DNA of 64,000 nucleotides from Asaia siamensis. Its GTDB lineage: Bacteria; Pseudomonadota; Alphaproteobacteria; Acetobacterales; Acetobacteraceae. Below, piece after piece: positions 18,990-41,973 of this stretch; the first letter of the stretch is position 1; each line of letters opens with the position of its first letter. The position numbers and the translations under genes are program-made. The notes beneath the pieces are model-generated. The model saw only the letters and a program-made list of their open reading frames with translations. It made no database searches and had not been told where the DNA came from. The DNA lies in contig NZ_BMCH01000005.1 of assembly GCF_014635085.1 (NCBI RefSeq), positions 62,001 through 126,000 of the forward strand, given 5' to 3'.

Positions 18990-19427
18990 ATGGAACAGAG
19001 GCTCGGAAAACGAGACCGCCTTCAGGGCGACGCCCTCAAAATCCTCTTCCTTGATCATCTGAAGAAGACGGGAAATGTGTCTGAGGCTGCGCGTGCCGCC
19101 GGGATTGATCGCAAGACGGCTTATAACTGGCGGCGCGGCGATGAGATATTCAGCGACCACTGGAAGCAGGCCCTTGAGGAAGCGACCGATCTGCTCGAAG
19201 CCGAGGCCCGTCGTCGGGCGCTCGAGGGCTATGAGGAGCCGCTGCTTTATGGTGGGCGTCTGATTTGCGACTCCGATGGCAAACCGGTAACGCGAAAGCG
19301 ATATAGCGACGGGCTCTTGCGCATGTTGCTGCGGGCTCATCGTCCGGCCAGCTTTCGCGACGTGCGTGTGAATGTCGATGAATGCGAAGTGGAATTATCT
19401 CTGACCGAGGGCGATGAAGCGCTCTAG
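18990..19427 (+). CDS. Phage terminase small subunit
   Basis: DNA-recognition subunit of the packaging motor. 145 residues: an N-terminal helix-turn-helix (TGNVSEAARAAGIDRKTAYNWRRGD, about 27-52), then ARRRALEGYEEPLLYGGRLI and KRYSDGLLRMLLRAHRPASFR, the segment found in Gram-negative terminase small subunits. A GGAG lies before the ATG. Its 3' end overlaps the large-subunit start by 14 bp. Its recognition site on the element (pac/cos) was not identified. Confidence 0.85.
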   Translation: MEQRLGKRDRLQGDALKILFLDHLKKTGNVSEAARAAGIDRKTAYNWRRGDEIFSDHWKQALEEATDLLEAEARRRALEGYEEPLLYGGRLICDSDGKPVTRKRYSDGLLRMLLRAHRPASFRDVRVNVDECEVELSLTEGDEAL

Positions 19428-20739: not shown

Positions 20740-20749
20740 AGGAATTTTC

Positions 20750-22159
20750 ATGGATTGGATGGCGTTGCAGGGGCGTTATGCCATGCCGCCCGGCGCGTCT
20801 GCGCGCACGAGGCGGTTGCTGGCCCTGCAGAAAGTGCTCGCAGGGACGCAGTATGATTCGCTGCCCTATCCTTTTGCGAGCGAGCGTAGCGTTTCGGGAG
20901 AGTATATTCCGCTTTCGCAGAGACGGCCTTCCGTGCGGACCAATCTGTGCCGTACCGTTGTTGATGAGGCAGTCTCGCTTTTATTCGGCAATACTCATTG
21001 GCCGATGGCCGTTGCGTCGCATGAGTCGACATCAAAAGCGATGAACGCTTTTGCTTTCGAGACTGGTCTGCCTGCTTTCATGATGCAGGTAGCGACATGC
21101 GGGTCTGTCGGATCGGTCGCAATATGGGTTGAAGTTATGGGGAGCAGTCCGCGTTTTTCGCTTCTGGAAACCGCCTATCTGACACCTGACTGGGACCAGT
21201 ATGGCGCGCTTTTGACTGTGACCGAGCGCTATATGGTTTCAGGGGCTGATCTGAAGGCAAGCGGATACGCCGTGTCGTCTGACGCCTTGTCGTCCCGTTT
21301 CTGGTGGCAGCGTCGCTGGACCCGTACCGGAATGGACGTTTTCGTGCCGGTTCCTGCAGGAGAGGAAGGTGGTGACGTTCTTGATGAGAAACGATCCAGC
21401 ATTCATGATCTTGGTTTCGTCCCTGTGGTCTGGATCCGCAATCCGGGCGCTGTGTCAGCGACGGAGCCGGATGGAGAGTGCAGTTTCGAAAAGGCCATCG
21501 ATACGGTGATCGAGGCGGATTATCTACTTTCGCAGGCGGGACGGGGGCTGAAATACGGTTCCGATCCGACGCTTGTGCTGAAGACACCTGAGATTCTGGA
21601 GGGCGTGGCACGTCAAGGCGGCGCTGCCTCGGCTTTGACCTTGCCGCCCGAAGGTGATGCGAAGCTTCTCGAAATCAATGGTGCGGCTGCGGGAGCTGTC
21701 CTGGCCCATTATCGGGAATTGCGTCAGCTCGTGCTGGAGCAGCTTCATGGAAACAGAACCCATGGTGATCGCCTGGGCGCGCCTCAATCGGGACGCGCGA
21801 TGGAGCTTATGTGTCAGCCTTTGATCTGGATGGCAGACCGCCTGCGCGGGACTTACGGCGATGGCGGTATTCTGCCGCTTTACCGGATGCTGTGTCGCTT
21901 TTCAGCAGTGCTGTCTGACGGATTGATAATCGGGGGGCAGGTTCTCAGGGATCTGGATCCTGCAGGTCTCTCTCTGCACTGGCCTGCCTGGTTTGCTGCT
22001 GATGAAGCCGAGCTTCTGCCTATGGCAAAGGGACTGGGAGAGGCTGTGAATGCTGGCCTGCTGAGCCAGGAAACCGCAGCCCGGCTTTATGCCTGCGCTG
22101 CCGGCGTTGCGGACCCCGCTGCGGAATGGACCAAAATCATGGCTGCGCGTGCAGCCTGA
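20750..22159 (+). CDS. Phage portal protein
   Basis: Dodecameric ring at the capsid vertex that docks terminase and then the tail. 469 residues from ATG 20750, which has AAGGA nine bases upstream; a longer frame from 20678 runs into the terminase gene and is rejected. SPP1 gp6-like layout: an N-terminal TNLCRTVVDEAVSLLFG segment, a central beta-rich wing, and the long stem/crown helices around ALHYRELRQLVLEQLHG-like residues and APQSGRAMELMCQPLIWMAD. Place between terminase and capsid genes supports the call. Confidence 0.85.
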   Translation: MDWMALQGRYAMPPGASARTRRLLALQKVLAGTQYDSLPYPFASERSVSGEYIPLSQRRPSVRTNLCRTVVDEAVSLLFGNTHWPMAVASHESTSKAMNAFAFETGLPAFMMQVATCGSVGSVAIWVEVMGSSPRFSLLETAYLTPDWDQYGALLTVTERYMVSGADLKASGYAVSSDALSSRFWWQRRWTRTGMDVFVPVPAGEEGGDVLDEKRSSIHDLGFVPVVWIRNPGAVSATEPDGECSFEKAIDTVIEADYLLSQAGRGLKYGSDPTLVLKTPEILEGVARQGGAASALTLPPEGDAKLLEINGAAAGAVLAHYRELRQLVLEQLHGNRTHGDRLGAPQSGRAMELMCQPLIWMADRLRGTYGDGGILPLYRMLCRFSAVLSDGLIIGGQVLRDLDPAGLSLHWPAWFAADEAELLPMAKGLGEAVNAGLLSQETAARLYACAAGVADPAAEWTKIMAARAA

Positions 22160-22185
22160 AGAGAACCCTTTTAGGGGAAATGGAA

Positions 22186-22617
22186 ATGCCAGATGACATT
22201 GATGCGCTTCGTCGTTCTCTTGCTGAACTTGCTGCAGAGCGGGAAGGCCTCGTTCGGGCGCACCAGGAAGAGATGGCTCGGGTGACACAAGCTGCACGCG
22301 AAACCGTGCTTGCCAATGCCCTGCGCGCTGAGGCGATGCGCCTTGGAGCCCATGACCCCGATGCTGTGATGCTGCTGATGGATCGTTCCGGGGTTGGATG
22401 GTCGGAACAGGGTGAAATAACGGGCGTGGAAGACGCCATGGCGCAGGCGCGTCAGGCGCGCGGCTTTCTGTTTCGGGATCCGCATGGGACGGCCGCTGCT
22501 CAAGGCTGGGAAGGCGCCGTGCCGAAACCGGCTTCTGTGCAGGTGCAGGATGCGCGTGGTCTGGCTGCTGCGGAATATGCCGCACGCAAACGTCAGTTTC
22601 TCGCAGGCATTATCTGA
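22186..22617 (+). CDS. Putative scaffold-like prophage protein
   Basis: A 143-residue protein. The first half is a continuous charged helix (DALRRSLAELAAEREGLVRAH) typical of phage scaffold/GP20-type proteins; the second half carries DPDAVMLLMDRSG and ends AARKRQFLAGII. It sits exactly where scaffolds lie, between portal and major capsid. Start set at ATG 22186, eight bases after AGGGG; an ATG at 22180 is too close to that site. No protease domain is present. Function inferred from shape and position. Confidence 0.6.
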   Translation: MPDDIDALRRSLAELAAEREGLVRAHQEEMARVTQAARETVLANALRAEAMRLGAHDPDAVMLLMDRSGVGWSEQGEITGVEDAMAQARQARGFLFRDPHGTAAAQGWEGAVPKPASVQVQDARGLAAAEYAARKRQFLAGII

Positions 22618-22641
22618 AAATTACGGGTCAGGGATGAAAAA

Positions 22642-24009
22642 ATGGGTATTGAGAATTTTCCTGAACAGTTGCGTGCAGCCATTCAGCAGGGCTTTCTGGC
22701 GCGCGAATTTGAAACGGGGCTGAATGCGCGGCTCGGGTTTCGTGCCGTTGCCGATCGCGAGATTTTTCCCAATGCGATCGGTGAAACGCTGACAAAGACG
22801 CGCAAGAGCCTCAAGGCGCCGGTTGTCGAGCCGCTTCTGCCTTCAGGGAATACGAATTTCGATAATGGCCTGTCGCCCAGCGGATGGTCCGTCGAGCAAT
22901 ATACGCTCAGTATCAACCAGTATGGCGATACCATCGACCTCAATATGGTGACGACCGGAGTGGGCATTGCTTCGCAATTTCTGGCGAATGCGCAAACCAA
23001 TGGCTTTCAGGCCATGCAGTCTCTGGATCGCCTGGCGCGCAATGCCTTGTTTGCCGGTGTGCCAGGCGGTGTTGGGGGGTATCTGGGCGGTAATACCCGT
23101 GTGACAGCGACGGCTACTGCGAAGACAACGACGATTGCAGTCGATGATATTCGCGGTTTCCAGTTCGTGATCGTCTCCGGGCTGGTGAGGCCAGTCAATG
23201 CCAGTCCCGGTATGACGGTGACGGTTGGCAGTGGTGTCTATACGCTTATTGCCGCGACGGCTGATCAGAGCAATGTCTCGACGGCGCCGGGTGGCATTTC
23301 GGGGCAATTGCAGTTCTCGACAGGTGTTTCTGTTGCAGATGCGACGACGGGTAATGCCGTTGTGGCCGCGACCGCGCCTCTCGTCTTGCGACCTAACGGT
23401 AAACGAAGCACAGCCGATCTGCGCCATGCGGATGGCGATACGCTTGGTATTCAGCATGTTCTGGCGGGTGTGGCGTCATTGCGCCGCAATAACGTGCCGA
23501 TGATCAATGGGGCGTATAACTGCTATCTTGATGATCTCCAGCTTCTTTCGCTGTTTCGCGATGCAGATTTCAAATATCTTTATCGCGGTGCCTATGGCTC
23601 GGAAGAGTATCGCTCGGGCCAGATCATCGAGTTGCTCGGTGTCCGGTTCGTGCCGACGACGGAGGCGCCCCAACAGGCTTCTCTTGGAGGTGGGCCGATC
23701 CATCGTGCGTTGCTTTTGGGGCAGGGGGCGCTGGTGGAGGGAGACTGTGCCTGCATTGGACATACCGACATTCCTGATGCCGAACGGGCCCTGATCGAGA
23801 TGGTGGACCGTGTGGCCATGGTCACGCGCGAGCCGCTCGACCGGCTGAAGCAGATCATTGCGCAGTCATGGTACTGGATCGGCGGGTTTGCCCTACCGAC
23901 TGATGTGACCGCCGATGTGTCGATCATTCCGACAGCGACCAATGCCTATCTCAAGCGTGGCGTTGTGATCGAGAGTCTTGGGACGGATGCAGCCGGTTTC
24001 GGTCTGTGA
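22642..24009 (+). CDS. Major capsid protein (N4 gp56-like)
   Basis: A 455-residue HK97-fold coat protein of the N4-gp56 type. The N-terminus begins FPEQLRAAIQQGFLAREFETGLNARLGF; the middle holds LMVTTGVGIASQFLANAQT-like and NALFAGVPGGVGGYLGGNT segments; near the end are GQIIELLGVRFVPTTEAPQQ and RALLLGQGALVEGD, the usual order of this family. A variable Ala/Thr/Val-rich insertion lies at about residues 155-245. No separate capsid protease gene is nearby, fitting families that mature without cleavage. Confidence 0.8.
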   Translation: MGIENFPEQLRAAIQQGFLAREFETGLNARLGFRAVADREIFPNAIGETLTKTRKSLKAPVVEPLLPSGNTNFDNGLSPSGWSVEQYTLSINQYGDTIDLNMVTTGVGIASQFLANAQTNGFQAMQSLDRLARNALFAGVPGGVGGYLGGNTRVTATATAKTTTIAVDDIRGFQFVIVSGLVRPVNASPGMTVTVGSGVYTLIAATADQSNVSTAPGGISGQLQFSTGVSVADATTGNAVVAATAPLVLRPNGKRSTADLRHADGDTLGIQHVLAGVASLRRNNVPMINGAYNCYLDDLQLLSLFRDADFKYLYRGAYGSEEYRSGQIIELLGVRFVPTTEAPQQASLGGGPIHRALLLGQGALVEGDCACIGHTDIPDAERALIEMVDRVAMVTREPLDRLKQIIAQSWYWIGGFALPTDVTADVSIIPTATNAYLKRGVVIESLGTDAAGFGL

Positions 24010-24437
24010 ACGAGGCCGATTCAGTTTCTTGTGGCGCCGTTCCTGGGGTGGAGATGACAGGCGGGGCGCTGACCGAGGACGAAAAGACCGAAATCAGACG
24101 GTTCTGCGGTTATGCGGCGCTTGGTGACGTGGCAAGCGGCGAAAGTTCGTGGCGGTTTTTTCAGAACGCGGGAACACTCGAGTGGCGTCTGAACACGCTT
24201 GCCGGGTCTGAGAGAAAAAGGCTGCGGTATTTTCTCGCGACCCTGATCCAGATGGAGCGTGCCGTGCAGTCTGTCTCGGAAAATCTGGATACTCAGGCTG
24301 TTTCCGCCTGGACGCGTAATACGCGCGAGCTGTCCGAGCGCGTGCGTCTTTTCGATTGGTGGCGCCGTCGTGTGTGCGGATTTCTCGGGATCATGCCCGG
24401 GCCGGACTTGCGGGATTACGCTTCTGTCGTCGTGTAA
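24006..24437 (+). CDS. Prophage head-tail connector-like protein
   Basis: A 143-residue helical protein directly after the capsid gene. Core: LTEDEKTEIRRFCGYAALGD, then WRFFQNAGTLEWRLNTL and a C-terminal RLFDWWRRRVCGFLG. The same order occurs in uncharacterised connector-position proteins of acetic acid bacterial prophages as I recall them. The GTG at 24006 overlaps the capsid stop (GTGA); an ATG at 24054 with a GGGGTGGAG just upstream is an equally good start and would trim 16 residues. Precise function unknown. Confidence 0.6.
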   Translation: MNEADSVSCGAVPGVEMTGGALTEDEKTEIRRFCGYAALGDVASGESSWRFFQNAGTLEWRLNTLAGSERKRLRYFLATLIQMERAVQSVSENLDTQAVSAWTRNTRELSERVRLFDWWRRRVCGFLGIMPGPDLRDYASVVV

Positions 24438-24459
24438 ATAAAGAGCGGGAGGGAAGCCG

Positions 24460-25050
24460 ATGCGAGCCATGCAGCAGCGTGTGGATGCAGGCTTTGCCAG
24501 AGCGGCGCGTCGCCTTGGGACGATAGGACGACATTATCGCGTGGTCGATCCGTTGAAGCCACTATCAACACTCATGGGCACGCCTTTTCTGTGCTTTGAT
24601 GCCGATGCTGGTTTTCAGATGCGCAAACCTCGCATGTGGGCGCGACCGATGGTCTATGCGTTGAGCGATGCCCCGTCGTTGTGCATCGGCGATATTCTGC
24701 AGCAGGAAGAGCGTTTCTATTTCGTTGCCGAAATTGAAGCATTTCGTCCGCCGCTCTGTGTCGCCTGCAACAAGTGTATCTCGATTTTCGGGATGCGCGG
24801 CGTTACGCAGCTTCATGTCGGGCAATGTCCTGCGAGCATCGTGCTGACCGGAAAAGGGGAGGATAGCCACAGTGGCATGCCGGGCGCGCTGCGCTCGGGA
24901 AGTTACATGCTGTCTCTGCCGGTTCTGCCTGGTTTTTATCTAGTGCCGTATATGCAGATCATCGACGAACTGGGGCTGCGTTATACAGTTGATTCGGTGG
25001 AATTGTCGCGGAACGGAACGCGCGCCATTGTGTCGTTGCAGCAGATCTGA
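24460..25050 (+). CDS. Prophage structural protein, unknown
   Basis: A 196-residue protein, begins MRAMQQRVDAGFARAARRLG and is beta-rich after residue 40. Contains a CVACNKCISIFGMRG stretch with three Cys close together, possibly coincidental. A good purine-rich ribosome site (GGGAGGGAAG) precedes the ATG. Position between capsid/connector and sheath suggests a head-closure or tail-terminator role. No family recognised. Confidence 0.55.
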   Translation: MRAMQQRVDAGFARAARRLGTIGRHYRVVDPLKPLSTLMGTPFLCFDADAGFQMRKPRMWARPMVYALSDAPSLCIGDILQQEERFYFVAEIEAFRPPLCVACNKCISIFGMRGVTQLHVGQCPASIVLTGKGEDSHSGMPGALRSGSYMLSLPVLPGFYLVPYMQIIDELGLRYTVDSVELSRNGTRAIVSLQQI

Positions 25051-25052
25051 TC

Positions 25053-26021
25053 ATGACAGATCTTTCCTCCGTCACGCGTGGGTTGGCCCTTTGCTGTGCC
25101 AGCCGTTTTGCCGATATCGCGGCGGCTTCGTCATTCTGGAGCGCGCAGAAAGTCTTTTTTCGGGTCGGGCCTCTGATGCCTTCTGATCTGTTCACCTCTC
25201 CCTCGCTGCGTGAAGCGGTGAGCTATGTGACCATCGCGCCCCTGTCCGGCGGGTATGAAGGCCTGTCTACTCCACTGGGGCAGGAATGGGTGGAGACATT
25301 GCGTATTCCTCCTGTCCTTTCAGTCGAGACCAGGGGCGGGACAGCGCAGTTCCGGCTGACCTCTCGCAGGGCGGCGCCCGGCATTATCGCCTTGATATGG
25401 ACGCCGCCGGGTGGTGAGCCGCGTGTGGCGCGTCATGTCGCAGATGCGCAGGAGACAGAGGCGCAGATGGCGCAGAACCTGGCGTCGCAGTTCGAAGGGG
25501 CTGTGGCTGATGAGGACAGGCTGAGCGTCTCCGCAGGGAGTCTGAAAGCTGTTACTGGCGGCTATGGTCGGTCGAGCTGTCTCATCAGGCGTCAGAGCCA
25601 GATTTTCAGACTTTCTCTGTGGACCAGCGCCTGCGAGATGCGACCGGCGCTGGGCGATCTGCTGGTTTCGCGCCTTTTGCCGCAGGACTGGCTTGCGCTG
25701 ACCGATGGACGGCAGGCGCAGATTTTCTTCGAGGGTGAAGACGATCAGGACGCGATGCAGACCCAGTCTTTGTTTCGTCGGGATGTTCGGGTGCGCGTTA
25801 TTTTTGACAGATATGACTCTGTCTGGTCGCCACAGATGGTGGCTGGTGGAGGCTGGTTTCATGCGAATGGTCTCCCTTTTTCTTTTGATACCGCCCCCGA
25901 CCAACTGCGCGCCGAGATACCAGAAGAGGCGCTCGATGCCTTGGCTGCGGCGCAGGAAATGCCAGCCGCTTATCGGAACTGGGACACGGATTGCGATGGG
26001 ACCGTCCGGCCAATGCCCTGA
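25053..26021 (+). CDS. Prophage structural protein, unknown (pre-sheath)
   Basis: A 322-residue protein immediately upstream of the tail sheath gene and 3 bp after the preceding gene. Mixed alpha/beta composition; the C-terminal part (QAQIFFEGEDDQDAMQTQSLFRRDVRVRVIFDR) looks like the beta-rich part of tail-completion proteins, which in P2-like clusters lie near here. No motif allows a family name. Starting ATG lacks a clear ribosome site, suggesting coupling. Confidence 0.5.
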   Translation: MTDLSSVTRGLALCCASRFADIAAASSFWSAQKVFFRVGPLMPSDLFTSPSLREAVSYVTIAPLSGGYEGLSTPLGQEWVETLRIPPVLSVETRGGTAQFRLTSRRAAPGIIALIWTPPGGEPRVARHVADAQETEAQMAQNLASQFEGAVADEDRLSVSAGSLKAVTGGYGRSSCLIRRQSQIFRLSLWTSACEMRPALGDLLVSRLLPQDWLALTDGRQAQIFFEGEDDQDAMQTQSLFRRDVRVRVIFDRYDSVWSPQMVAGGGWFHANGLPFSFDTAPDQLRAEIPEEALDALAAAQEMPAAYRNWDTDCDGTVRPMP

Positions 26022-26057
26022 TCAGTTTAGGTCACTTCCAGAAAAGAAGGATCATTC

Positions 26058-27548
26058 ATGCCACAACTCATACAGAGCGGCGCCCTGAATACAGCGGCCC
26101 TGCCTGTGCCTGATCTGTATATCCAGATCGCCCAGCCTGAAACCCTGTTGATATCCGGAGTTTCTTCCGGGTTGCTTGGAATTGTCGGTACGGCCTCATG
26201 GGGCCCGGTTGATGTATCAACGCTTGTTGGCAGTGTCGGTCAGTGCCGGGAGTTTTTTGCCGGAAAACGCGGCTGGGCGTCCAATCTCAATGTCGCTGTC
26301 GACGTGGCCGTGCATCAGGGGGCGAGCCAGTTCTGCCTTGTGCGGGTAACCGACGGGGCTGACAAGGCAGCGCAGGCCAGTCTGGGGGCGGCCCAGATCA
26401 GGGCACGTTATACCGGTAGCGCGGGCAATGCAGTCGTCGTGAATGTGACGCGCCAGAGTTACCGTGACGGGCAGTTCGTTCTGAGTGTCTCTCATGAAGA
26501 ACTGGGAGCGACGGCCTATACCGGAGCGGACTGGACGGCGCTTGCGCAGGCTCTCGCTGCAGATACCCAGGCGCTTGTGCTGGTCGAAGTTGCCGGCGAC
26601 GCCGCGATTACGGAAACCGGATCCGTGCAGCTCGCCGGGGGCGCCGATGGAGGAGAGCCTGCGCCGGGGCGTTTTGTCGGTGTCGCGGAGGCGAGAACCG
26701 GGCTTTATGCCCTGACCAACCAGGGATGCAGTGTGGCAACCCTCGCAGGTGTGGGGGATACAGCGACGATGGTGCCGATGCTCGCTTTCGGGCGTGACGA
26801 GGGCATCTACATGATCGCAGCCGGGCCGAAAGGCGAAACACTGGCTCAGGCCATACAAAGCAAGACAGCTTATGGTCTGTGGTCGCATGCATTGAAATAC
26901 ATGCATGGCGACTGGCTGTGGTGGAATGACGATACGCTCGGTTTGCAGCTGGTCAGTCCTGCGGTTTTTGCTGCCGGAAAACTGGCTGCGCTTTCACCCG
27001 AACAGTCAGGGCTGAACAAGCCTCTGGCGGGTATTGTCGGGAGTCAGAAGAACGGCCTCGAAGCGACGCGTTTCGGCTATTCGCTGGCCGAGCTTGGCGC
27101 CTTGATCGAGAATGGCATCGATGTGATCTGCAATCCTTCGCCGGGGGGGCAGTACTGGGCGATCCGTGCCGGGCATAATACCTCGCAAAGCGCGGCGGTG
27201 CAGAGCGACGCGTATACCCGTCTGACCAATTACCTTGCGCGGTCGCTCGAAGGCACGATGGGTCAATATGTCGGCAGCGTGATCAATGACAGTCTGTTTG
27301 GCAATATCCGTGCATCGATACTGGGCTTTCTCTCCAGCCTGTTGTCGCAGGGTATTCTCGGTGTGACTGGTGGTCGCCTGCCTTATGCCGTGCTGTGTGA
27401 CAGCAGCAATAATCCCGGCGACCGTGTTGCAACGGGGTATGTGCAGGCCGATGTGCAGGTGCAGTACCAGGGGATTAACGAGAAATTTATCATCAATCTG
27501 CAGGGGGGCGCCTCTGTGAGCGTCAGCACTGCCAGCGGGAGTGTCTGA
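26058..27548 (+). CDS. Phage contractile tail sheath protein
   Basis: Forms the outer, contracting sheath. 496 residues. The N-terminal region has the sheath-type opening SGVSSGLLGIVGTASWGPVD and GQCREFFAGKRGW; the conserved C-terminal lock region includes GTMGQYVGSVINDSLFGNIRASILGFLSSLLSQGILG and ends with a beta strand GINEKFIINLQGG. Preceded by AAGGA. This gene establishes that the tail is contractile (myovirus or tailocin type). Confidence 0.9.
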   Translation: MPQLIQSGALNTAALPVPDLYIQIAQPETLLISGVSSGLLGIVGTASWGPVDVSTLVGSVGQCREFFAGKRGWASNLNVAVDVAVHQGASQFCLVRVTDGADKAAQASLGAAQIRARYTGSAGNAVVVNVTRQSYRDGQFVLSVSHEELGATAYTGADWTALAQALAADTQALVLVEVAGDAAITETGSVQLAGGADGGEPAPGRFVGVAEARTGLYALTNQGCSVATLAGVGDTATMVPMLAFGRDEGIYMIAAGPKGETLAQAIQSKTAYGLWSHALKYMHGDWLWWNDDTLGLQLVSPAVFAAGKLAALSPEQSGLNKPLAGIVGSQKNGLEATRFGYSLAELGALIENGIDVICNPSPGGQYWAIRAGHNTSQSAAVQSDAYTRLTNYLARSLEGTMGQYVGSVINDSLFGNIRASILGFLSSLLSQGILGVTGGRLPYAVLCDSSNNPGDRVATGYVQADVQVQYQGINEKFIINLQGGASVSVSTASGSV

Positions 27549-27551
27549 TTC

Positions 27552-27977
27552 ATGGTGAATCCTTACAGTATCGGTCGGGACTGCCGGATAACGCTGCTCT
27601 GGAACGGATCGCGGATCGATCTGCGCGACGTGACCGGATTTCAGTCCGAGCAGCACACGATTATCCAGCGTGCCACACCACTCAATGGATTACCGGTCGA
27701 GTTCAACACGCCCAGCGGGTGGCGCGGCGTTTTTACCATCGCACGTGCCAATGCCAATCTCGACAGTCTGGTCGCCGCAATCGAAGCGGCATTCTGGAAT
27801 GCCGGTAGTATCGGGAGCGGCACGCTGTATCAGTATATCCGTGAGCCCGATGGGACGACAACGACCTGGGAGTATAGCGGGGTGTCTCTCTCGCTGAAGA
27901 CCGATCGATGGCAGGCAGAAGGCATGATTCACCAGCATGTCCAGTTTTATGCGTCGTTGCGGAGCAAGATTTCATGA
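27552..27977 (+). CDS. Phage tail tube protein
   Basis: Inner tube of the contractile tail. 141 residues, compact and beta-rich, beginning MVNPYSIGRDCRITLLWNG. It directly follows the sheath (3 bp gap) and overlaps the chaperone start by 4 bp, the standard sheath-tube-chaperone order of P2-type tails. Family assigned mainly by size and order; no single diagnostic motif. Confidence 0.75.
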   Translation: MVNPYSIGRDCRITLLWNGSRIDLRDVTGFQSEQHTIIQRATPLNGLPVEFNTPSGWRGVFTIARANANLDSLVAAIEAAFWNAGSIGSGTLYQYIREPDGTTTTWEYSGVSLSLKTDRWQAEGMIHQHVQFYASLRSKIS

Positions 27978-28464
27978 TGAAATTGCCGGAAGAACTCGAG
28001 ATTGCTCCCGGGCGCACGCTTGCGCTGCGGGAGCTCGACCCCGGGGATATGCTTGATCTCATAGAGGCTGGGGGAACGGCAACCGCAGGCGCTGCCGCAT
28101 CGACCTGGCTTTCCTACGCGCAGATGGTCTGTTCGGTCAGGGCCGTGAATGGCGTGCCGGTGCAGATGCCTGTCACGAAAGACGAGATTCGTGATCTGGC
28201 CCGTCGTATCGGCAATGACGGTATCATGCTGCTTCAGACCTTTTTCTTCGATGCCGACTCTCCGCAGGATGCCGTTCTGGACACGGCAAAAAACTGAGCG
28301 GGCACCCTGTTTTCAGGGAGATTCTTTATCTCCTGAGAAGTGGGGTGCCCTGGTCTGTCGTTACCGCATGGTCGCGTGCGCGACGTATGGCAGCTTGCGT
28401 TGTTCTGGCCGAGCAGGACGGTTTTTCATTCGACTGGCAGCAATGTCGCTATCGGCAGGAATAG
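27974..28464 (+). CDS. Tail assembly chaperone, E plus E' by -1 frameshift
   Basis: In P2-like and lambda-like phages the two genes between tube and tape measure make a short chaperone and a longer frameshifted form. Here the short frame (27974-28297, 107 residues, begins MMKLPEELEIAPG) ends GCA AAA AAC TGA. The -1 frame continues from base 28294 for 56 codons to TAG at 28462, giving a 163-residue fusion whose tail reads LSGHPVFREILYLLRSG and ends WQQCRYRQE. That frame has no start codon of its own that would explain it. Both products are expected to load onto the tape-measure protein. Confidence 0.85.
28288..28350 (+). promoter_or_regulatory. Programmed -1 frameshift signal
   Basis: Slippery heptamer A AAA AAC at 28288-28294 in the correct phase, directly before the in-frame TGA. 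After a 5-base spacer, an 8-bp GC-rich stem (28300-28307 with 28343-28350) encloses a second 6-bp stem (28317-28322 with 28328-28333, 5-nt loop). Heptamer, spacer and stem match the classical bacterial/phage -1 frameshift element. Confidence 0.88.
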
Positions 28465-28470
28465 GCTCGG

Positions 28471-29511
28471 ATGAGAATAATAATGGCTGAAAAACCGATA
28501 CCCTTTTCGCCAACGCGCCTGCTCTGGCCGCGTCTTTTGCGCTCAGGGCCCTTGCGTTTGCCTTTGGGATCTTTCGTGCCTCCTGCACGTGTCAGGAAAA
28601 TTTCTGGCGCTCGGGCGGTGGCCTCGCTCGTGCGAAGCGAGACTTTAGCGAGATCTGTTCTTTATCGCGCCGGGTCTGTTGTCTTGTCTGCCCGTCGTCC
28701 TCTGAAGTTCCTTTCCAGCCAGCGGATTATCCCTGCTGCGATGCAGCAGCCAGGCAAAGCGTCGCTTCGGGCATCGATTTTTTTTGCGGGGGGAGCAGGT
28801 GTTGGAAGCAGTAGGCTCCAGTCACCAGTTCCGGTGGGACCGATTTCACGTGATGAGAGGCTGCGCGGGGCGGCTTCGGGATCGGAGGGGACGCGGCGTT
28901 CTGCTTCCGGTTTAACATGGCAGGTTTTGCAGACCGCTATGAGTGGGCGGCAGGGCTTGTTATCGTTGAAAGCGCTTCCGTTGGTCTCTTTGAGTAAAGC
29001 GTCGGCGCTACCTCTTCGGTCTCATCAGCCGATTTCAGGTGGGGCTGTTTTTCCCAGTCGGGGGAGGCCGGTCCCGCTATCGCCAATAGCAGACCGTCGG
29101 CTCTTTTCCGTAGGATCGGTGTCGATCGCGTCGCAAAAGCGGAAAGACAATCAGCCTCCGGTTGATGGTGAGGCAGCTGGTACGCCCGGGATTATAGGGC
29201 GTTTTCAGCGCACTCATGGGCTCTGGAATCAGGCGGGACGGCATATCGAAGTTTCGGTCGTTCCTGATTTTGCCGGAGCTTTACGGCGAAACAATGTGCT
29301 CATTAAGCAGCCTGAAGCAGAGCAGAGCGAAAGCGACTTGCTTGATCGGAACAGGCATCCTGATGGCGTCATGGAAATGCCTCGCGGGCAAGAGCGGGTG
29401 TCTGCTCTGGGTGACGAAGGGTTTCATATGAATATGCTTCGTACGCGCAGCGCTGTGGTCGATGAGATCGCCATGCCACAATACCCGAATATGAGTTTCG
29501 GCTTCATGTAA
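28471..29511 (+). CDS. Tape-measure-position protein, Pro/Arg/Ser-rich, unusual
   Basis: A 346-residue protein with no stop over 1 kb, preceded by AGGA from the chaperone's last codons. By position it should be the tape measure, but that family is long, helical and often has membrane segments; this one is rich in Pro, Arg, Ser and Gly (for example PTRLLWPRLLRSGPLRLPLG), strongly basic in its first two thirds and probably disordered. If it is the ruler, the tail would be about 50 nm at the usual 0.15 nm per residue. Alternatively it is a replaced or degraded tape measure, or an unrelated insertion. Rare codons (AGG, CGG, TTA) appear more often than in neighbours by eye. Confidence 0.55.
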   Translation: MRIIMAEKPIPFSPTRLLWPRLLRSGPLRLPLGSFVPPARVRKISGARAVASLVRSETLARSVLYRAGSVVLSARRPLKFLSSQRIIPAAMQQPGKASLRASIFFAGGAGVGSSRLQSPVPVGPISRDERLRGAASGSEGTRRSASGLTWQVLQTAMSGRQGLLSLKALPLVSLSKASALPLRSHQPISGGAVFPSRGRPVPLSPIADRRLFSVGSVSIASQKRKDNQPPVDGEAAGTPGIIGRFQRTHGLWNQAGRHIEVSVVPDFAGALRRNNVLIKQPEAEQSESDLLDRNRHPDGVMEMPRGQERVSALGDEGFHMNMLRTRSAVVDEIAMPQYPNMSFGFM

Positions 29512-29522
29512 GAGAAGAAAAA

Positions 29523-30392
29523 ATGGGCATATCGCTTCTTCAGGTCGAGAATGCGCTGGGTGCTATAGGCCAGCTCGACCGGGCGGCCCCTGTGACCCTG
29601 GGAAATCTGGTTCTGAGTGGCCCTGAAGTGCCCGATGAACTGGTTATTGGCGGTCGTCAGGTCCTGATTATCCATCGCCTTCTCGGGGGCGGGCGTGTGA
29701 TCGATTCAGTCGGAAACGATCCGGCGCGGTTGGTTTTGACGGGGCGTTTTATAGGCCCGATGGCCACGAGCAGGGCGCGCCGTTTGGAAACGATGCGCGA
29801 GGCAGCACAGGTTCTGGCATTTTCGGTTGCTGATCTGTCTGCCCGCGTCTGGATTGCCGAATTTTCCTGGTCGTATCGGGCGCGAGGGACAATCTGCCCC
29901 TATCGTCTGGTGCTGGAGCGGGAAGTCAGCCCGCCTGTGTTGGTGCCCATTTCATCGGAGACCGCCAGTATGGATATGGTCTCGGGTTTGGGTGTTTTTT
30001 CGACAATGCTCGGTCAGATGACCGATTCAGGATGGATTGGCACGACCATGATTTCATCTGTTGTGGGGCAGATCATGCCGATAGCCCAGATTCTGGGTGT
30101 CGGGGGCGCAGTGGCGCATGCGCAGGATGCGCTGGGAAAGGCCAGTTCGCTCTGGCAAAGCGCTACCAGTGTCAGCCGGATACCCACGGCCGTCGCCGCA
30201 GTCGAATCGGATCTTTCTGTGGCAGGAAATAGCCTGTTGAAGGTTAGAAATGAATCTGGCCTGGCTCTGGACACTGCACAGGTCTCGAATGCGGCCGATC
30301 TGGTGACAATTTCGCAAAATGCCGGTGCCGCGACTTTGAGTGTCGATGCCGGAAGTTATGTCAGCCGCGCGCAGACCCTTATTGGTTCGTGA
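29523..30392 (+). CDS. Phage tail/baseplate protein, hub-associated
   Basis: A 289-residue protein. The first 130 residues are beta-rich (VTLGNLVLSGPEVPDELVIGG, then ARLVLTGRFIGP) and look like the N-terminal domain of tail proteins that follow the tape measure in contractile phages (Mu gpN / 'DNA circulation' group). The second half is Ala/Ser/Gly-rich with hydrophobic stretches (ISSVVGQIMPIAQILGVGGAVA). It lies immediately before the X and D genes. Could contribute to the ruler function that its neighbour seems poorly built for. Confidence 0.6.
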   Translation: MGISLLQVENALGAIGQLDRAAPVTLGNLVLSGPEVPDELVIGGRQVLIIHRLLGGGRVIDSVGNDPARLVLTGRFIGPMATSRARRLETMREAAQVLAFSVADLSARVWIAEFSWSYRARGTICPYRLVLEREVSPPVLVPISSETASMDMVSGLGVFSTMLGQMTDSGWIGTTMISSVVGQIMPIAQILGVGGAVAHAQDALGKASSLWQSATSVSRIPTAVAAVESDLSVAGNSLLKVRNESGLALDTAQVSNAADLVTISQNAGAATLSVDAGSYVSRAQTLIGS

Positions 30393-30464
30393 CGGCCACT
30401 ACCGGAGAATATCCTTTTCGGGAGAAGACGGTGCCGCACTGAAGTATTCCGAGGAGAAAAGAGA

Positions 30465-30665
30465 ATGAAGATACAGGTGACGTCAGATGATGTTTCGCTC
30501 TTTCATCTCGCTTTGCGCTATTTTAGTGACGCCATGCAGTGGTGGCGTATTGCTGAAAAAAACGGGCTTTCCGATCCCGATCTCACCTGTTTCGACGCAC
30601 CGGTGCAGATCATTCTGCCTGATGAGAGCGTTTCTTATGGGAGCGAAGGTTTGCCGCCCTCATGA
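30465..30665 (+). CDS. Tail protein X-like (LysM-type) small protein
   Basis: A 66-residue protein with the compact pattern of P2 gpX: SLFHLALRYFSDAMQWWRIAEKN, then VQIILPDES, corresponding to the LysM-like repeat that places the hub on the cell wall. A GAGGAG ribosome site precedes the ATG. The stop overlaps the D gene (ATGA). In P2-like phages X lies beside D, as here. Confidence 0.7.
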   Translation: MKIQVTSDDVSLFHLALRYFSDAMQWWRIAEKNGLSDPDLTCFDAPVQIILPDESVSYGSEGLPPS

Positions 30666-31726
30666 CAGAGCTGATGCGTAATTGGAAAGCCCGGCTTCTG
30701 ATTGATGGCGTGAGGCAGCAGGATCTGCATGTAGGGGGCTTTCGTCTGGAATGTACCCGCTATGCACGCTGCGACACGGCGCTCATCAGAGTGGTCACCA
30801 AGAACAAAACCGTGTTGCGCGGTCTTGTGGAAAATCGCTCAGGCTTTGATCGGCCGGATGTGATGCTGCAGGTGGCGCAGGGCGACGAGGAATGGACGAC
30901 GGTTTTTCACGGTGTGCTCGATGCGCTGAACAAGGAAAATGGTAACGCGCTCTTCGTGCTGGAGTGTCGGGATTATATGGCCTTTCTGCTCGATACACGC
31001 CTTGCCGCTTCCTGGAGCAATCAGACCGCGCTCGAACTGGTACAGGAAGCGGTGCAGCGTGCCGGCCTGACTTTCAGGACGGATATCGTGTCCGGGACTA
31101 CCGATGCTGCCGCGTATTGTGGGCAGTTCTGGCAGCTGGAGCACAGGCGGCTCTCCGCCGTCACGCAGAATCGGTATCAAACCGCTTTTGATATCGCGTT
31201 CTCCCTGTCGCGCGATCATGGATATGAGTGCCACGCATCGGGTAAAACGATCCATATCCACGAGCCCTATGCTGTCGGTGAGGGCGGTACACGACTTTTT
31301 TCTCCCGATGGTGTCAGCGTGCAGTCTTTCAGGCACGATCTTGGTCTCGCACGGAATGTCGTTGTCGGTGTGCAATCGTGGGATTCACGCCAGAGGGCGC
31401 GAAGCGAGGTTTATTTCGACGGGCAGAATTTCTCGAGCGAGATGCCGGGCGCCAATGCCGCGCTTTATACGTTCAGGGCGCCAGGGCTGCGCATGGACGA
31501 TATAAGGCGCCTGGCAAAGGGAAAATATCGACGGATTGTCTCGCACGCATGCGAAGTCCGTCTCTCTCTGCCTGCCATGACGGGGCTGGCGCCGCGCCAT
31601 TTCATGACTGTCGATGAAGGGATTTCAGACGGGGTCAGGACATTATCCGTCGACTCTGTCACGCATTTCATGGATCCCGCTCATGGCTATCGGCAGGACG
31701 TGACACTGCGGGATCGTGTTTTTTGA
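30662..31726 (+). CDS. Phage late control gene D / tail hub protein
   Basis: A 354-residue gpD-type hub that caps the tube end and joins the spike. N-terminal beta domain (RNWKARLLIDGVRQQDLHVGGF), central LELVQEAVQRAGL helix, and AFDIAFSLSRDHGYECHASGKTIHI typical of the family. C-terminal VRTLSVDSVTHFMDPAHGYRQDVTL is the usual closing strand pair. Translationally coupled to X upstream. Confidence 0.85.
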   Translation: MTELMRNWKARLLIDGVRQQDLHVGGFRLECTRYARCDTALIRVVTKNKTVLRGLVENRSGFDRPDVMLQVAQGDEEWTTVFHGVLDALNKENGNALFVLECRDYMAFLLDTRLAASWSNQTALELVQEAVQRAGLTFRTDIVSGTTDAAAYCGQFWQLEHRRLSAVTQNRYQTAFDIAFSLSRDHGYECHASGKTIHIHEPYAVGEGGTRLFSPDGVSVQSFRHDLGLARNVVVGVQSWDSRQRARSEVYFDGQNFSSEMPGANAALYTFRAPGLRMDDIRRLAKGKYRRIVSHACEVRLSLPAMTGLAPRHFMTVDEGISDGVRTLSVDSVTHFMDPAHGYRQDVTLRDRVF

Positions 31727-31732
31727 AGGAGT

Positions 31733-32389
31733 ATGCCTATGGATGGTTCCTTCTTGGCTGCGGCCCATCAGACACGCGCTGCCCACGCCATACATGGCAT
31801 TGTCTCGGCAGTTGATCCTGCCAATCATGCCGTCAAGGTTCGTCTGCAGCCCGATAATATCGAGACAGGGTGGCTGCCGGATGCGGCAGTCACACAAGTG
31901 GGGGATTTGCGGCTTTCCTGCCCAACCGCACCCGGCGCTCATGTCTTGCTGATGCCGGTGGAAGGCGACGGCGAGAACTACGTGATTATTTCCGTCATGT
32001 TCGATGTCGTTGCTGGACCCGCCCTGTCGCCCCAGACAGGCAAGGTGGCACAACCTGGCGAATTGCTGATCAGAGCCGGGTGCGGTGCGCCCTCCAGAGA
32101 ATCTGCCCGCAAGAGTGAGCCAGGCGGGTGGCTGCATCTTGGGCGGGATGGCGTGTTTTTTGGCGCTGGCTCGATGCAATGTGCCCTTAGCGGATCGGCG
32201 ATCGTGCTGAAGGCGGGATCTGTCAGAATGACCCTTGATTCCGGAGGGATTAGAGTTTCCGGCGCGGGTATCGAGGTGAAAGGGGGCGGTATTTCCGTCT
32301 CCGGAGGGGATGTGCGCACGGACACGAACAGTCTTAGCGACCATGTGCACCCCTATGCCAATGGGATGACCGGAAAGGCATTGGGATGA
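31733..32389 (+). CDS. Phage baseplate assembly protein V (spike)
   Basis: A 218-residue gpV-type spike protein. An OB-fold N-terminal domain (AIHGIVSAVDPANHAVKVRL, then DLRLSCPTAPGAHVLLMP) is followed by a repetitive beta stretch (GSAIVLKAGSVRMTLDSGGIRVSG, SGGDV) that would form the trimeric beta-helix needle, and a His-containing end SLSDHVHPYANGMTG, where the apex metal-binding HxH would be. AAGGAG precedes the ATG; ATGA overlap with the next gene. Confidence 0.88.
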   Translation: MPMDGSFLAAAHQTRAAHAIHGIVSAVDPANHAVKVRLQPDNIETGWLPDAAVTQVGDLRLSCPTAPGAHVLLMPVEGDGENYVIISVMFDVVAGPALSPQTGKVAQPGELLIRAGCGAPSRESARKSEPGGWLHLGRDGVFFGAGSMQCALSGSAIVLKAGSVRMTLDSGGIRVSGAGIEVKGGGISVSGGDVRTDTNSLSDHVHPYANGMTGKALG

Positions 32390-32760
32390 CGGATCTGTAC
32401 CATTATTTCGGCGAGGATCTGCAACTCGACGATGATGGCGCCCTGCGGGCTGCGGATGGATCATCGGCCACGCAGCAAAACATCCTGCGGCGTCTCTGCA
32501 CCAACCCGCAAGCCTATCTCTGGCACGCAGAATATGGCGCCGGTCTGCCTTCGCGCGTAGGTACGCCGATCCGGGAGGTGGAAACGCAGGGGCTGATTGT
32601 CAGTCAACTCGCTCTGGAAGCGTCAATCGATCACGATCAGCCGGTGACTGTGACACTGACGCCTCTGGCTGTGAGTACGTATCGCTGCGCAATCACCTAT
32701 ACCGAACAAGGCGAAGAGGCTGAGCAGGTTTTCACATTCAATCAGAGCGGCACGATCTGA
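32386..32760 (+). CDS. Baseplate wedge protein W (gp25-like)
   Basis: A 124-residue gp25/gpW-like wedge, the sheath-initiating lysozyme-related fold of contractile machines. It starts DLYHYFGEDLQLDDDGALRAADG and has QQNILRRLCTNPQAYLWHAEYGAGL, matching the family's 'xxQxIxRRLxTxPGxxxxxPxYG' core. Coupled to V by ATGA and followed by J, the P2 V-W-J order. Confidence 0.87.
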   Translation: MTDLYHYFGEDLQLDDDGALRAADGSSATQQNILRRLCTNPQAYLWHAEYGAGLPSRVGTPIREVETQGLIVSQLALEASIDHDQPVTVTLTPLAVSTYRCAITYTEQGEEAEQVFTFNQSGTI

Positions 32761-32799
32761 GCCTGGCTCGGCTCCTGCCGACGAGGCATCGGAAAGCTC

Positions 32800-33942
32800 A
32801 TGTCGTTTTCTTTGCGTTCCTTTTCGGCACTCGTCCAGAGTGCTGTCGTTACGGCGCAGGCGCAATGTGCCCAAAAGCTCACGCTTGATATCGGCACCCC
32901 AGGGCGCGCCCTGATAGAAAGCGTCGCTGCGCTTGGTCTGTGGCTGCAATATATGCTGCTTCAGATCCTCTGTCGCACAAGACTGGCCACATCGGTGGGC
33001 ACAGATTGCGACAGTTTCGTCGGCGATTTTGGTATGACCCGACTGCCCGGCGTCAAGGCGCTGGGTTCGGTTACCATGACCTGCTTTTCCTATGACGATA
33101 TCTCTGCCGTGGTGCGACCCGGTGTGACCGTGCGAACGGCTTCGGCCATTACCTATCAGGTCGTGATTGATACGACCCACGAGCACTGGTCGAAGGAAAC
33201 GGCAGGGTATGTGCGTCCGACTGGGCTGGCCTCGCTGACTTTGCCCGTCGAGGCATTGGTCGAAGGTGTTCAGGGCAATGTCGCCATAGGCGCGATCTCC
33301 CTGATGGGCACTTCGGTTGCAGGCATTGATATCGTGACTAATCTCAAGGCTTTTGCGAATGGTTCGGATCAGGAAACCGATGCGCAGCTCCGAAAGCGCT
33401 TTCCGCTCTGGCTGGCGGCCAAGGCCAGCGCGTCTCGCGCGGCAGTTGAGAGCGCGGTGGCCGAGACCCAGAATAATCTGAGCTATGCCGTGTTCGATGG
33501 ACAGCAATCCGACGGAGCGACCCGATCCGGCTATTTCACGGTTGTGATCGACGATGGCAGTGATGATGTGCCTGAGCAGGTGCTGCAAAAAGTCTATGCC
33601 AGCGTGGAGGCGACGAAGGCCCTGGGGGTCGGGTTTGCCGTGCAGCGCCCGATAGTCCTGACAGTAAACGTTGCGATGACGGTGCGGATCGCTTCCGGTG
33701 CCGAGGCAGAAGCGGCCCGTACGGCGCTTGTCAGAGCCCTTGGTGCCGACATCGCTGCCGCACAGATCGGGGCGAGCTATCCATTCAGTCGCCTTGCCTA
33801 TGTCGCTTATGTCGGTGCCGGTGTGCCGGTGCTTTCGGTGACGGATATTCTGCTCAACGGCAGTCAGAACGATATCCCGGCACAAACCAGCCAGTCGCTT
33901 TTTCCAGGCACGATCTCCGTTCAGATCGTTCAGGAGGGGTAA
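32800..33942 (+). CDS. Baseplate J-like protein
   Basis: A 380-residue wedge protein of the baseplate J family. Signature elements: GVKALGSVTMTCFSYDDIS, PGVTVRTASAITYQV, LPVEALVEGVQGNVAIGAISLM, then GSDQETDAQLRKRFPLWLAAK, which is the conserved 'G(x)DxExDxxLRxR' box. C-terminal SRLAYVAYVGAGVPVLSVTDILLNG is also typical. Its stop overlaps the next ATG (TAATG). Confidence 0.9.
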   Translation: MSFSLRSFSALVQSAVVTAQAQCAQKLTLDIGTPGRALIESVAALGLWLQYMLLQILCRTRLATSVGTDCDSFVGDFGMTRLPGVKALGSVTMTCFSYDDISAVVRPGVTVRTASAITYQVVIDTTHEHWSKETAGYVRPTGLASLTLPVEALVEGVQGNVAIGAISLMGTSVAGIDIVTNLKAFANGSDQETDAQLRKRFPLWLAAKASASRAAVESAVAETQNNLSYAVFDGQQSDGATRSGYFTVVIDDGSDDVPEQVLQKVYASVEATKALGVGFAVQRPIVLTVNVAMTVRIASGAEAEAARTALVRALGADIAAAQIGASYPFSRLAYVAYVGAGVPVLSVTDILLNGSQNDIPAQTSQSLFPGTISVQIVQEG

Positions 33943-35177
33943 TGCCGAAATTCAACAACTACTTTCGTATTCCTGCTGTCGCGGGACCGGAAGTTCTCGT
34001 CATCGCAACGCCGGATGGTGTCGAGACCCTCAATGCGACGGCCAGTCAGATTGCCGGTGCCCCTGCCGATTCTCCGCCCAGTGGTGAATTCTTTGCAGAA
34101 GAAGGGGCGAAAATCAGTCGGTACGGCGATCGTTTCTTTATTGGTGCGGCGTCTGATTATCCGGCGCTCAATACGCGCGATGTCGCACATCAGGACTGGC
34201 TGTCGTCTCTTATGGCGACCACGTCGATCGGTCCGTGGGCTCTCGAAAATGCCCAGGCTGCTTCGCTTTCGCGTTTTGGCAACAGCGCCTTCGTGGCGGG
34301 GTCGCGCACATCGGATGCGATGAAATGGCGTGACAAGCTGGGCCATGTGCCGAGCACGATCGGTGTTGCTTCATGGGGCATCGCTGACGATGCGACGAAT
34401 CCGACCCAGGCCACGGCCTATGCCTATTACGGCGAAGCCTGGCGTATGCCCGGGGTCAATTATCAGCCCAGCTTCGTCATGGAGCTTGAGGCTGTGAATC
34501 TGGGCGGGCCTGCTTATGGCATGTCGACGCCTTATCATCCGAATTGCGGTGGCGGCACCTACGCGATCCAGATCGGCGCCGGGGGCGGGCAGACTGAGGG
34601 GACAGCAGATTGCGAGGCAGGAATCGTTTTTGTCAGCAATCCCGACTCATGGAAAACAGGCATCCTGTTCGGTAATACCGCGCTGGCCGGGACGAATGGC
34701 GATGATGGTGGCTATGCGACGGCGATATCGATGGCGCGTGGTCAGGGTATAGAGTGGCGGACGCCTGAAACACGCGAGCATGTTCAGGGCCTTGATGCGG
34801 GGGCCATGCTTTTTTCGACCGTTTCTCAGACTGCCAAGGGGCAGCGTATCCAGTTTGCCGATGATGGGCTTCTGGTCACGAACATGACCGGTAATCTGCT
34901 GTTCTCCGTTTCGCCCAATAATGCTCCAACCAACACGCTGAATATCCAGGCAGGAAGCGGTCTCGCTGCGGCGGGACTTTATGTGCAGAAGGGTGAAAAT
35001 GGCTCTCCCAATCTGGGCCTCTACCCCGCAGAGGGAGGGGAAATCCAGATGTCGTCGCCTGTAGCGAGTTTGGGGGGCGCCGTGCCGCAACAGGCTGGGG
35101 GTGGTTTTCTGCATCTCAACGTGAACGGCAAGGATTATCGCGTGCCGCTTTTCACGGCTGAACAGGTGGGTGACTGA
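33942..35177 (+). CDS. Phage tail fibre/spike-like protein between J and I
   Basis: A 411-residue protein, Gly/Ala/Thr/Asn-rich with short beta repeats, beginning MPKFNNYFRIPAVAGPEVLV. Composition fits a receptor-binding fibre or spike: SMARGQGIEWRTPETREHVQG, then ADDGLLVTNMTGNLLFSVSPNN. It is inserted between the J and I baseplate genes, which are adjacent in P2, with one-base overlaps on both sides. No enzymatic motif or chaperone domain seen. Host-range role is inferred. Confidence 0.6.
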   Translation: MPKFNNYFRIPAVAGPEVLVIATPDGVETLNATASQIAGAPADSPPSGEFFAEEGAKISRYGDRFFIGAASDYPALNTRDVAHQDWLSSLMATTSIGPWALENAQAASLSRFGNSAFVAGSRTSDAMKWRDKLGHVPSTIGVASWGIADDATNPTQATAYAYYGEAWRMPGVNYQPSFVMELEAVNLGGPAYGMSTPYHPNCGGGTYAIQIGAGGGQTEGTADCEAGIVFVSNPDSWKTGILFGNTALAGTNGDDGGYATAISMARGQGIEWRTPETREHVQGLDAGAMLFSTVSQTAKGQRIQFADDGLLVTNMTGNLLFSVSPNNAPTNTLNIQAGSGLAAAGLYVQKGENGSPNLGLYPAEGGEIQMSSPVASLGGAVPQQAGGGFLHLNVNGKDYRVPLFTAEQVGD

Positions 35178-35836
35178 TGGCCATTCTGAGAGATCGCGAT
35201 ATAGCGAGCCTGCAGGCGACGGATCGCAAGACGCTTTACGACACCGGCATCGCGCCGGGTAGCGCGCGTGATTTCGCCAGACGCCTGCGGCTCATTCTGC
35301 CCGCTGGCTGGTTTCCGGCCTATCGCGGGGACGAGGTCGAGGATGCCCCGATCTTGCAGTCATTGCTGACCGGGTTTGGCGCCGTACTGGCATCGATCTG
35401 GAGCCTGATGAGTTTTGTACGCAGGCAGACGCGTATGGGCACTACCGATGACGCATTTCTGGAAGTGGCTGCGGCCGATTTCTTCGGCCCCTCAGGCATG
35501 GTCCGTCTCAATCTCGAGAAAGACACCCATTTTCGCAGGCGGATGGTGAGTTCTCTCGTGGCACCTCTCAATACCCGTGCGGCTGTATCAGAGGCGGTAC
35601 GTCGACTATCCGGCGCTGCGCCTCGGATCATCGAGCCGGGTAACGTGCATGACTGCGGTGCCTGGTGTCAGGTTGGCGGCTATGGCGCGTCACGCACCCG
35701 CTATGGTGCCCGCCAGGGAGGGCAGTTTTTTCTGGAGGTCTACCCGAAGCTGCCGGTCGAACAACGTGCCCTGCACGCAGCGATCAAGGCCACGAAGGCG
35801 TCGGGTGTGATCGCATGGATAAGGATGCAAGCGTGA
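35177..35836 (+). CDS. Phage tail protein I-like (baseplate)
   Basis: A 219-residue protein that fits gpI/DUF2313-type wedge or fibre-attachment proteins: an N-terminal helix pair, LLTGFGAVLASIWSLMSFVRRQTRMGTTDDAFLEVAAADFFG, then HFRRRMVSSLVAPLNTRAAVSEAVRRLSG, the same layout as tail proteins that describe 'start, trajectory and remapping' of the last segments. Overlaps its neighbours by one base at each end. The name I is by position and shape. Confidence 0.7.
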   Translation: MAILRDRDIASLQATDRKTLYDTGIAPGSARDFARRLRLILPAGWFPAYRGDEVEDAPILQSLLTGFGAVLASIWSLMSFVRRQTRMGTTDDAFLEVAAADFFGPSGMVRLNLEKDTHFRRRMVSSLVAPLNTRAAVSEAVRRLSGAAPRIIEPGNVHDCGAWCQVGGYGASRTRYGARQGGQFFLEVYPKLPVEQRALHAAIKATKASGVIAWIRMQA

Positions 35837-40216: not shown

Positions 40217-40242
40217 GCGTTTGGAACTCGAATAAGTGACGC

Positions 40243-40935: not shown

Positions 40936-41030
40936 CCTGTTCTCCTGACGGAACAACGATGGGGGATGCCCATCATCTGGGCAACGCCCCCTTCTTCGCG
41001 ATTGCGTGAGGAAATGCAAGCAGGTTTCTG

Positions 41031-41064
41031 CCTTGCCCGTCCGGCTTCAGGGCGACGGGCAAGG
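41031..41064. terminator. Hairpin between lipoprotein and dehydrogenase operon
   Basis: CCTTGCCCGTC (41031-41041) and GACGGGCAAGG (41054-41064) are perfect 11-bp arms with a 12-nt loop. It lies 18 bp past the lipoprotein stop on the minus strand and ahead of the dehydrogenase operon, so it probably ends the hslO-to-lipoprotein transcript. No T-run. Confidence 0.65.
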
Positions 41065-41081
41065 TCGGGGGTGAATTCCCG

Positions 41082-41945: not shown

Positions 41946-41973
41946 GAGCGGCTCCTGGCTATGCGTCTCGACT

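Follow-up and report, generated by a model that had tools for sequence, protein, structure and literature searches.

A small phage tail gene of Asaia siamensis very probably directs two proteins from one mRNA, a putative tail assembly chaperone and a longer fusion product, by -1 ribosomal frameshifting at the slippery heptamer A_AAA_AAC. The gene is part of a head-tail cluster within the 64,000-nucleotide stretch of contig NZ_BMCH01000005.1 that was analysed here (the window; Table 1). The heptamer, its phase, a hairpin downstream of it and the protein of the -1 frame are conserved and selected. At the level of comparative evidence, the frameshift is real and of an ordinary kind for a tailed phage; its host context is the less expected part.

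Table 1. Features of the window that bear on the proposed frameshift and its surroundings
Feature	Coordinates	Strand	Remarks
Head-tail cluster holding the frameshift	18990..37092	+	terminase, portal, scaffold, capsid, sheath, tube, baseplate, fibre (PHROG)
Host flanks of the cluster	9472-16727 (left), 37113-47947 (right)		AcrB-type transporter left, dehydrogenase-like genes right
Tail sheath gene	26058..27548	+	PHROG tail sheath, E 5.5e-40
Probable tail tube gene	27552..27977	+	follows sheath; phrog_12993 (no assigned function), E 1.5e-39
Putative tail assembly chaperone, zero frame	27977..28297	+	106 aa; alternative ATG at 27974
Slippery heptamer A_AAA_AAC	28288..28294	+	in phase in 171/172 loci
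-1 frame extension	28294..28464	+	56 codons and TAG; fusion would be 162 aa
Zero-frame stop TGA adjoining the heptamer	28295..28297	+	spacing 0 nt in 160/171 loci
Probable stimulatory RNA hairpin	28300..28350	+	folding, codon-shuffle controls, covariation
Short, fast-evolving ORF in the tape-measure slot	28471..29511	+	346 aa; identity suggested by position

Slip site and reading frames

Read directly from the letters, the chaperone frame ends with the codons GCA (28286-28288), AAA (28289-28291) and AAC (28292-28294), followed by TGA, and the heptamer formed by these codons has the phase required for tandem -1 slippage, as the preliminary description of this DNA had proposed. The -1 frame begins with the codon CTG at 28294 and remains open for 56 codons up to the TAG at 28462-28464, again in agreement with that description. 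The two overlapping frames do lie between the tube gene and the tape-measure slot, the tube and tape measure being named by position.

The letters of the heptamer are not rare in themselves: counting both strands, the window has 14 copies of AAAAAAC, against 3.1 expected. Likewise, a -1 frame of at least 54 codons is reached by 17% of shuffled downstream stretches. Since the heptamer letters are common and a frame of 54 codons is not rare, the case rests on conservation and not on this single sequence. A chance origin of the arrangement was considered and rejected: the conservation seen in relatives, in the heptamer with its phase and its adjacency to the stop, in the hairpin and in the -1 protein, goes beyond chance.

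Relatives of the chaperone gene

Relatives were gathered with the zero-frame chaperone protein as the query, not with the heptamer. Homologues of the chaperone were found in 149 of the 397 Acetobacteraceae genomes sampled, in 22 IMG/VR loci and in the Komagataeibacter phages phiKX1 and phiKX2. The heptamer counts cover 172 loci, made up of 30 and 119 from genomes of the family (among the matches listed), the 22 IMG/VR loci and phiKX1; phiKX2 is not included. Some IMG/VR loci duplicate genome loci; a comparison over 180 nt leaves 163 distinct sequences among the 171 heptamer-bearing loci. A further scan, excluded from the heptamer counts, gave 43 named loci from Asaia, Gluconobacter, Swaminathania, Tanticharoenia, Brytella, Neokomagataea, Acidomonas, Komagataeibacter, Ameyamaea and Acetobacter malorum, three of the loci carrying no genus name. 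In a profile search across the class, the window's own genome was the only one of 289 sampled to contain the chaperone family (1/289); the genomes without a match include at least three Acetobacteraceae. Identity to the window protein goes down to 24% among the 69 chaperone members that were aligned.

The preliminary description had named relatives without the heptamer, or with stops in the -1 frame, as what would speak against frameshifting; the comparison with relatives does not bear this out. An in-phase heptamer is present in 171 of the 172 loci: AAAAAAC in 97, GGGAAAC in 71, AAAAAAT in two and CCCTTTG in one. The exception is L131, in which none can be recognised at the junction though the extension is kept. 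The -1 frame runs for 54-68 codons in 163 of the 163 non-identical heptamer loci. Three loci (L157, L168 and L172) were missed by tblastn and found through the GVP motif of the extension; they have the same heptamer upstream, and were then placed for the heptamer count by a pattern that itself includes the heptamer. Because the loci share ancestry, these counts are not independent events. The zero-frame stop directly adjoins the heptamer (distance 0 nt) in 160 of the 171 loci and lies 18 nt away in ten and 3 nt away in one. The A-site codon is that of asparagine, AAC or AAT, in all loci except one (170/171).

The protein of the -1 frame

The extension has the consensus LSRHPxLxxxLYLxxNGVPWDVAxxxSxxRRxAxxVAxGELDGxxFDW in 69 diverse members. 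Its length alone is weak evidence, because not only the shuffled stretches mentioned above but also the +1 frame, in 43 of 163 loci, reaches 54 codons; conservation of the sequence is the stronger sign. The median dN/dS of the extension is 0.15 among six Asaia genomes and 0.12 among six Gluconobacter genomes, with 0.28 for the highest finite pair. These values are rough, as synonymous sites approach saturation (about 0.6 different). The comparison omits three Asaia drafts in which genes are broken, and one or more of the Asaia pairs show no synonymous difference in the extension. The AF2 model of the window extension has a pLDDT of 93.5 and consists of three helices.

One broken copy (L005/L038) loses the register of the -1 frame within the extension. 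Decay or sequencing error is possible in the three Asaia drafts (G286, G259 and G307), because other genes of the cluster also give split or shortened matches there, as does a host gene in G307.

The earlier expectation that a gene caller would miss the -1 frame proved right only in part: in phiKX1 a CDS is annotated in this frame over the extension, as a separate hypothetical gene (31738-31917, corresponding to 10354-10533 of locus L053). The -1 frame could accordingly be read as a small gene in its own right, with its own start or with coupled re-initiation, to which the heptamer and the adjacency of the stop would be incidental. The phiKX1 annotation agrees with this, as does the fact that all 171 loci have an ATG, GTG or TTG somewhere among the extension's first 32 codons. 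However, the first of these possible starts is scattered from index 0 to index 31, i.e. no start is conserved. Index 17 comes first in 49 of the 171 loci; in the window this is the GTG of the GVP motif, and a start there would remove the first helix. Moreover, conservation begins right at the slip site, and in-phase heptamers would not be expected in front of an independent gene, which makes this explanation very improbable.

Proposed slippage by the ribosome

Under -1 ribosomal frameshifting, the ribosome would reach A_AAA_AAC with Lys-tRNA in the P site and Asn-tRNA in the A site, and would be stalled by the strong hairpin that begins 5-6 nt downstream. In a minority of cases both tRNAs would slip back by one base, and translation in the -1 frame would add a three-helix domain of 56 aa; the remaining ribosomes would terminate at once at the adjoining TGA. 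The 106-aa product would form a coat on the tape-measure protein, and the rare fusion of 162 aa would recruit tube subunits and seed the assembly of the tail tube, as with lambda G/GT and P2 E/E'. Slippage itself, its rate and the chaperone role are what we infer from the comparison of sequences.

A six-A run is present in 99 of the 171 loci and could also be a place where RNA polymerase slips, so that some mRNAs would gain one A and with it the coding sequence of the fusion. This explanation is extremely improbable: 71 loci use GGGAAAC, which has no long homopolymer, and yet have a similar extension; the A run is exactly six long in every one of the 99 loci; and both hairpin and phase are conserved. 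Two different heptamers in front of one similar extension agree with tandem slippage by the ribosome but not with a homopolymer mechanism.

The choice of the asparagine codon may be related to the tRNA complement of the host. E. coli has just one tRNA-Lys, which serves both AAA and AAG. Both TTT and CTT anticodons are represented among the tRNA-Lys genes of the window's own genome, L291 and L295, and AAG is therefore perhaps a poorer slip codon here; it may be for this reason that AAC, together with a strong hairpin, is used instead. In E. coli, A_AAA_AAC is a weaker shifter than A_AAA_AAG, according to passages of PMC5009743. It also figures among the consensus heptamers of prokaryotic frameshift clusters in a section of PMC3711429.

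The downstream hairpin

The 8-bp stem previously described at 28300-28307/28343-28350 is present, but the structure is longer than had been claimed: in a fixed register from 28299/28351 to 28322/28328, 21 of the 24 opposed positions can pair. The stretch 28288-28365 folds with -36.9 kcal/mol (z = -5.1), and none of 200 shuffles was as good. The hairpin starts 5-6 nt downstream of the heptamer.

A similar signal is found among the relatives. For the 62 nt that follow the heptamer in 163 loci, the mean z is -4.2 against dinucleotide shuffles, with 91% of the loci below -2. Against synonymous-codon shuffles, which keep the protein and were applied to all but the CCCTTTG locus, z is below -2 in 149 of 162 loci (mean -3.8), compared with 4 and 9 of 163 for two control stretches (means -0.03 and -0.35). 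Codon choice points the same way: the glycine of the GVP motif is encoded by GGG in 143 of 152 loci versus 472 of 1746 background glycine codons. The covariation score, computed from 69 diverse sequences, is 0.226 versus 0.149 +/- 0.007 when shuffled and at most 0.144 when slid; in the same test, pairs with double changes are not above shuffles (13 versus 12.6). The consensus fold of this alignment keeps only eight pairs, and the inner stem varies. The conserved core is formed by the outer 9 bp: among loci with standard spacing, at least eight of the nine are paired in 76 of 82 with AAAAAAC and in 69 of 70 with GGGAAAC. The spacer from the heptamer to the sequence GGCACC measures 6 nt in 150 of 163 loci. 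Taken with the covariation, these comparisons show that the hairpin is under selection at the RNA level, and a stimulatory role is probable.

It is scarcely credible that this strong hairpin, for all its position directly 3' of the stop codon, is a terminator or translational block and the -1 frame mere overlap noise, since the -1 frame is conserved at the protein level (median dN/dS 0.12-0.15), the extension folds confidently (AF2) and no T run follows the hairpin in the window.

Three loci of one genus (L072, L084 and L092) show no hairpin signal and keep the heptamer and the extension; another stimulator may act there in its place. In L047-L052 the protein motif differs, and the RNA still folds, with other bases paired.

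Identity of the chaperone and neighbouring tail genes

The role of tail chaperone is suggested mainly by gene order and by the architecture of the frameshift. Homologues of the tube gene are found nearby at 168 of the 171 loci and of the sheath gene at 166; the tube assignment follows from gene order only, and the tape measure is likewise named by position. Each of the 69 aligned chaperones has a match in phrog_20383, a family with no assigned function, and 14 of the 69 give a weak match to the tail assembly chaperone family phrog_508 (best E 6.2e-4). For phrog_20383, the function of a tail chaperone with a frameshifted partner can be proposed.

The AF2 model of the chaperone has a pLDDT of 90.2. 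A structure search with it gave one significant match, a phage protein without stated function (E 3.7e-4), and named tail assembly chaperones stayed below threshold (best E 0.07). Searches of solved structures (PDB) returned nothing usable, and Pfam gave nothing convincing for either protein. Below threshold, in the models m145e545bd1a9 and md0735e2c487b, the chaperone resembles baseplate hub proteins (E 0.35 and above) and the extension a hub assembly catalyst (E 7.4), in each case of other phages. That T4 holds a split counterpart would be speculation; a look at the literature on T4 gp26/gp51 found nothing useful.

The ORF in the tape-measure slot has no PHROG or Pfam match. Elsewhere in the genus it has no detectable match in five of eight genomes, while identity in the next gene is 59-87%. 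Among the 123 loci with a detectable next gene, the slot measures 648-1609 nt in 122; the remaining one has 7173 nt, which fits phiKX1. The next gene went undetected in 48 of the 171 loci, 19 of which have more than 1800 nt of sequence available, and longer tape measures are therefore possible in some relatives. Tail length amounts to about 0.15 nm per tape-measure residue, and the window's ORF would thus correspond to an unusually short tail, near 52 nm. In phiKX1 (L053), several small genes lie in the tape-measure region.

Comparison with known frameshift systems

A downstream stem forms part of the E. coli dnaX cassette, and lambda is not known to have a long hairpin of the window's sort. 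The -1 frameshifts of the tail chaperones lambda G/GT and P2 E/E' were reportedly described by Xu et al. in 2004. What the window shares with these systems, as they are treated in passages of PMC5009743, is a small chaperone with a C-terminal -1 extension, placed before the tape-measure slot, and an in-phase heptamer near the 3' end. Here, in contrast, the A-site codon is that of asparagine, the heptamer usually adjoins the stop and the hairpin is long and conserved. Sequence links to known tail chaperones are weak (the phrog_508 matches). The dnaX gene has a heptamer of the same form, A_AAA_AAN, but uses A_AAA_AAG where the window has AAC (passages of PMC5009743). Compared by slip site, the g-t frameshifts of the haloarchaeal viruses HCTV-1 and HCTV-2 are also similar, with G_GGA_AAC and A_AAA_AAC in tail-chaperone genes according to the same passages (PMC5009743), although these are archaeal viruses, unlike the window's bacterial cluster.

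Among the matches listed in a literature search, titles and abstract openings contained no description of a chaperone frameshift in acetic acid bacteria and no gene transfer agent for these organisms. The relatives gathered here constitute an unusually deep natural data set on bacterial -1 frameshifting with Asn-codon heptamers and a selected hairpin.

The head-tail cluster and its host

The same host flanks enclose the cluster in 9/9 genomes of the genus (eight compared with the window); the dehydrogenase-like names of the right-flank genes are a reading of the sequence. Of 16 additional genomes, all selected from the close matches to the chaperone, 15 have at least one of these flanks and six have both; G169 has neither. 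The terminase is present in 9/9 genomes of the genus, and the capsid protein occurs once each in 26/26 genomes of the GTDB genus holding Gluconobacter and in 91 of 200 genomes of the family.

Across 24 genomes, pairwise protein distances of 12 phage genes correlate with the distances of three host genes: the GMC gene (r 0.64-0.95), another gene of the right flank (r 0.59-0.90) and, less closely, the transporter (r 0.27-0.73); several of the matches behind these distances are short or cross a stop, for example in the portal gene of three genomes. The median dN/dS of the 12 phage genes is 0.01-0.18 in two genera, a rough estimate with synonymous sites near saturation, and by this measure purifying selection acts on the capsid, terminase and tail genes. 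The ORFs scanned in the window's copy include no match to an integrase or lysis family, nor were integration or replication genes found in this copy of the cluster, several ORFs of which have no assigned function.

The element is probably not an ordinary prophage. Its shared host neighbours, the purifying selection on its genes and its gene content suggest a contractile particle that has been domesticated and may be gene-transfer-agent-like. Vertically inherited head-tail clusters are also known as RcGTA-type gene transfer agents and as PBSX of Bacillus subtilis, and the window's cluster appears to share this mode of inheritance in the genomes compared. RcGTA has a non-contractile tail, whereas the particle proposed here would be contractile. 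Given the apparent vertical inheritance, the persistence of the frameshift signal speaks for particles that are still assembled to specification. We lean towards the view that the frameshift serves as the ratio control of an ancient contractile particle, domesticated early in the acetic acid bacteria and still selected, which would be gene-transfer-agent-like or PBSX-like and would combine an unusually short tail (about 50 nm) with a widely kept Asn-codon slip site and a long stimulatory hairpin.

Parts of PMC8566455, a paper whose main text has no mention of a frameshift, report inducible myovirus-like particles from acetic acid bacteria, the host strains of phiKX1 and phiKX2 among them. A portal and other phage proteins of G. 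oxydans are given as unique to the Acetobacteraceae in a section of PMC2241609, and these may belong to the window's type of cluster. A portion of PMC9765668 held nothing useful on Asaia phages. The existence of a contractile, gene-transfer-agent-like particle in acetic acid bacteria becomes a testable question in Gluconobacter or Asaia.

An apparent internal stop near the C-terminus of the capsid protein in many distant genomes was rejected as such, being the ordinary gene end in or at the edge of the match (seven loci checked). In L286, too, a stop lies within the capsid BLAST match. A second related cluster or gene lies elsewhere in some genomes, at G048:C54, G149:C1:1715119 and L235; these are perhaps true prophages.
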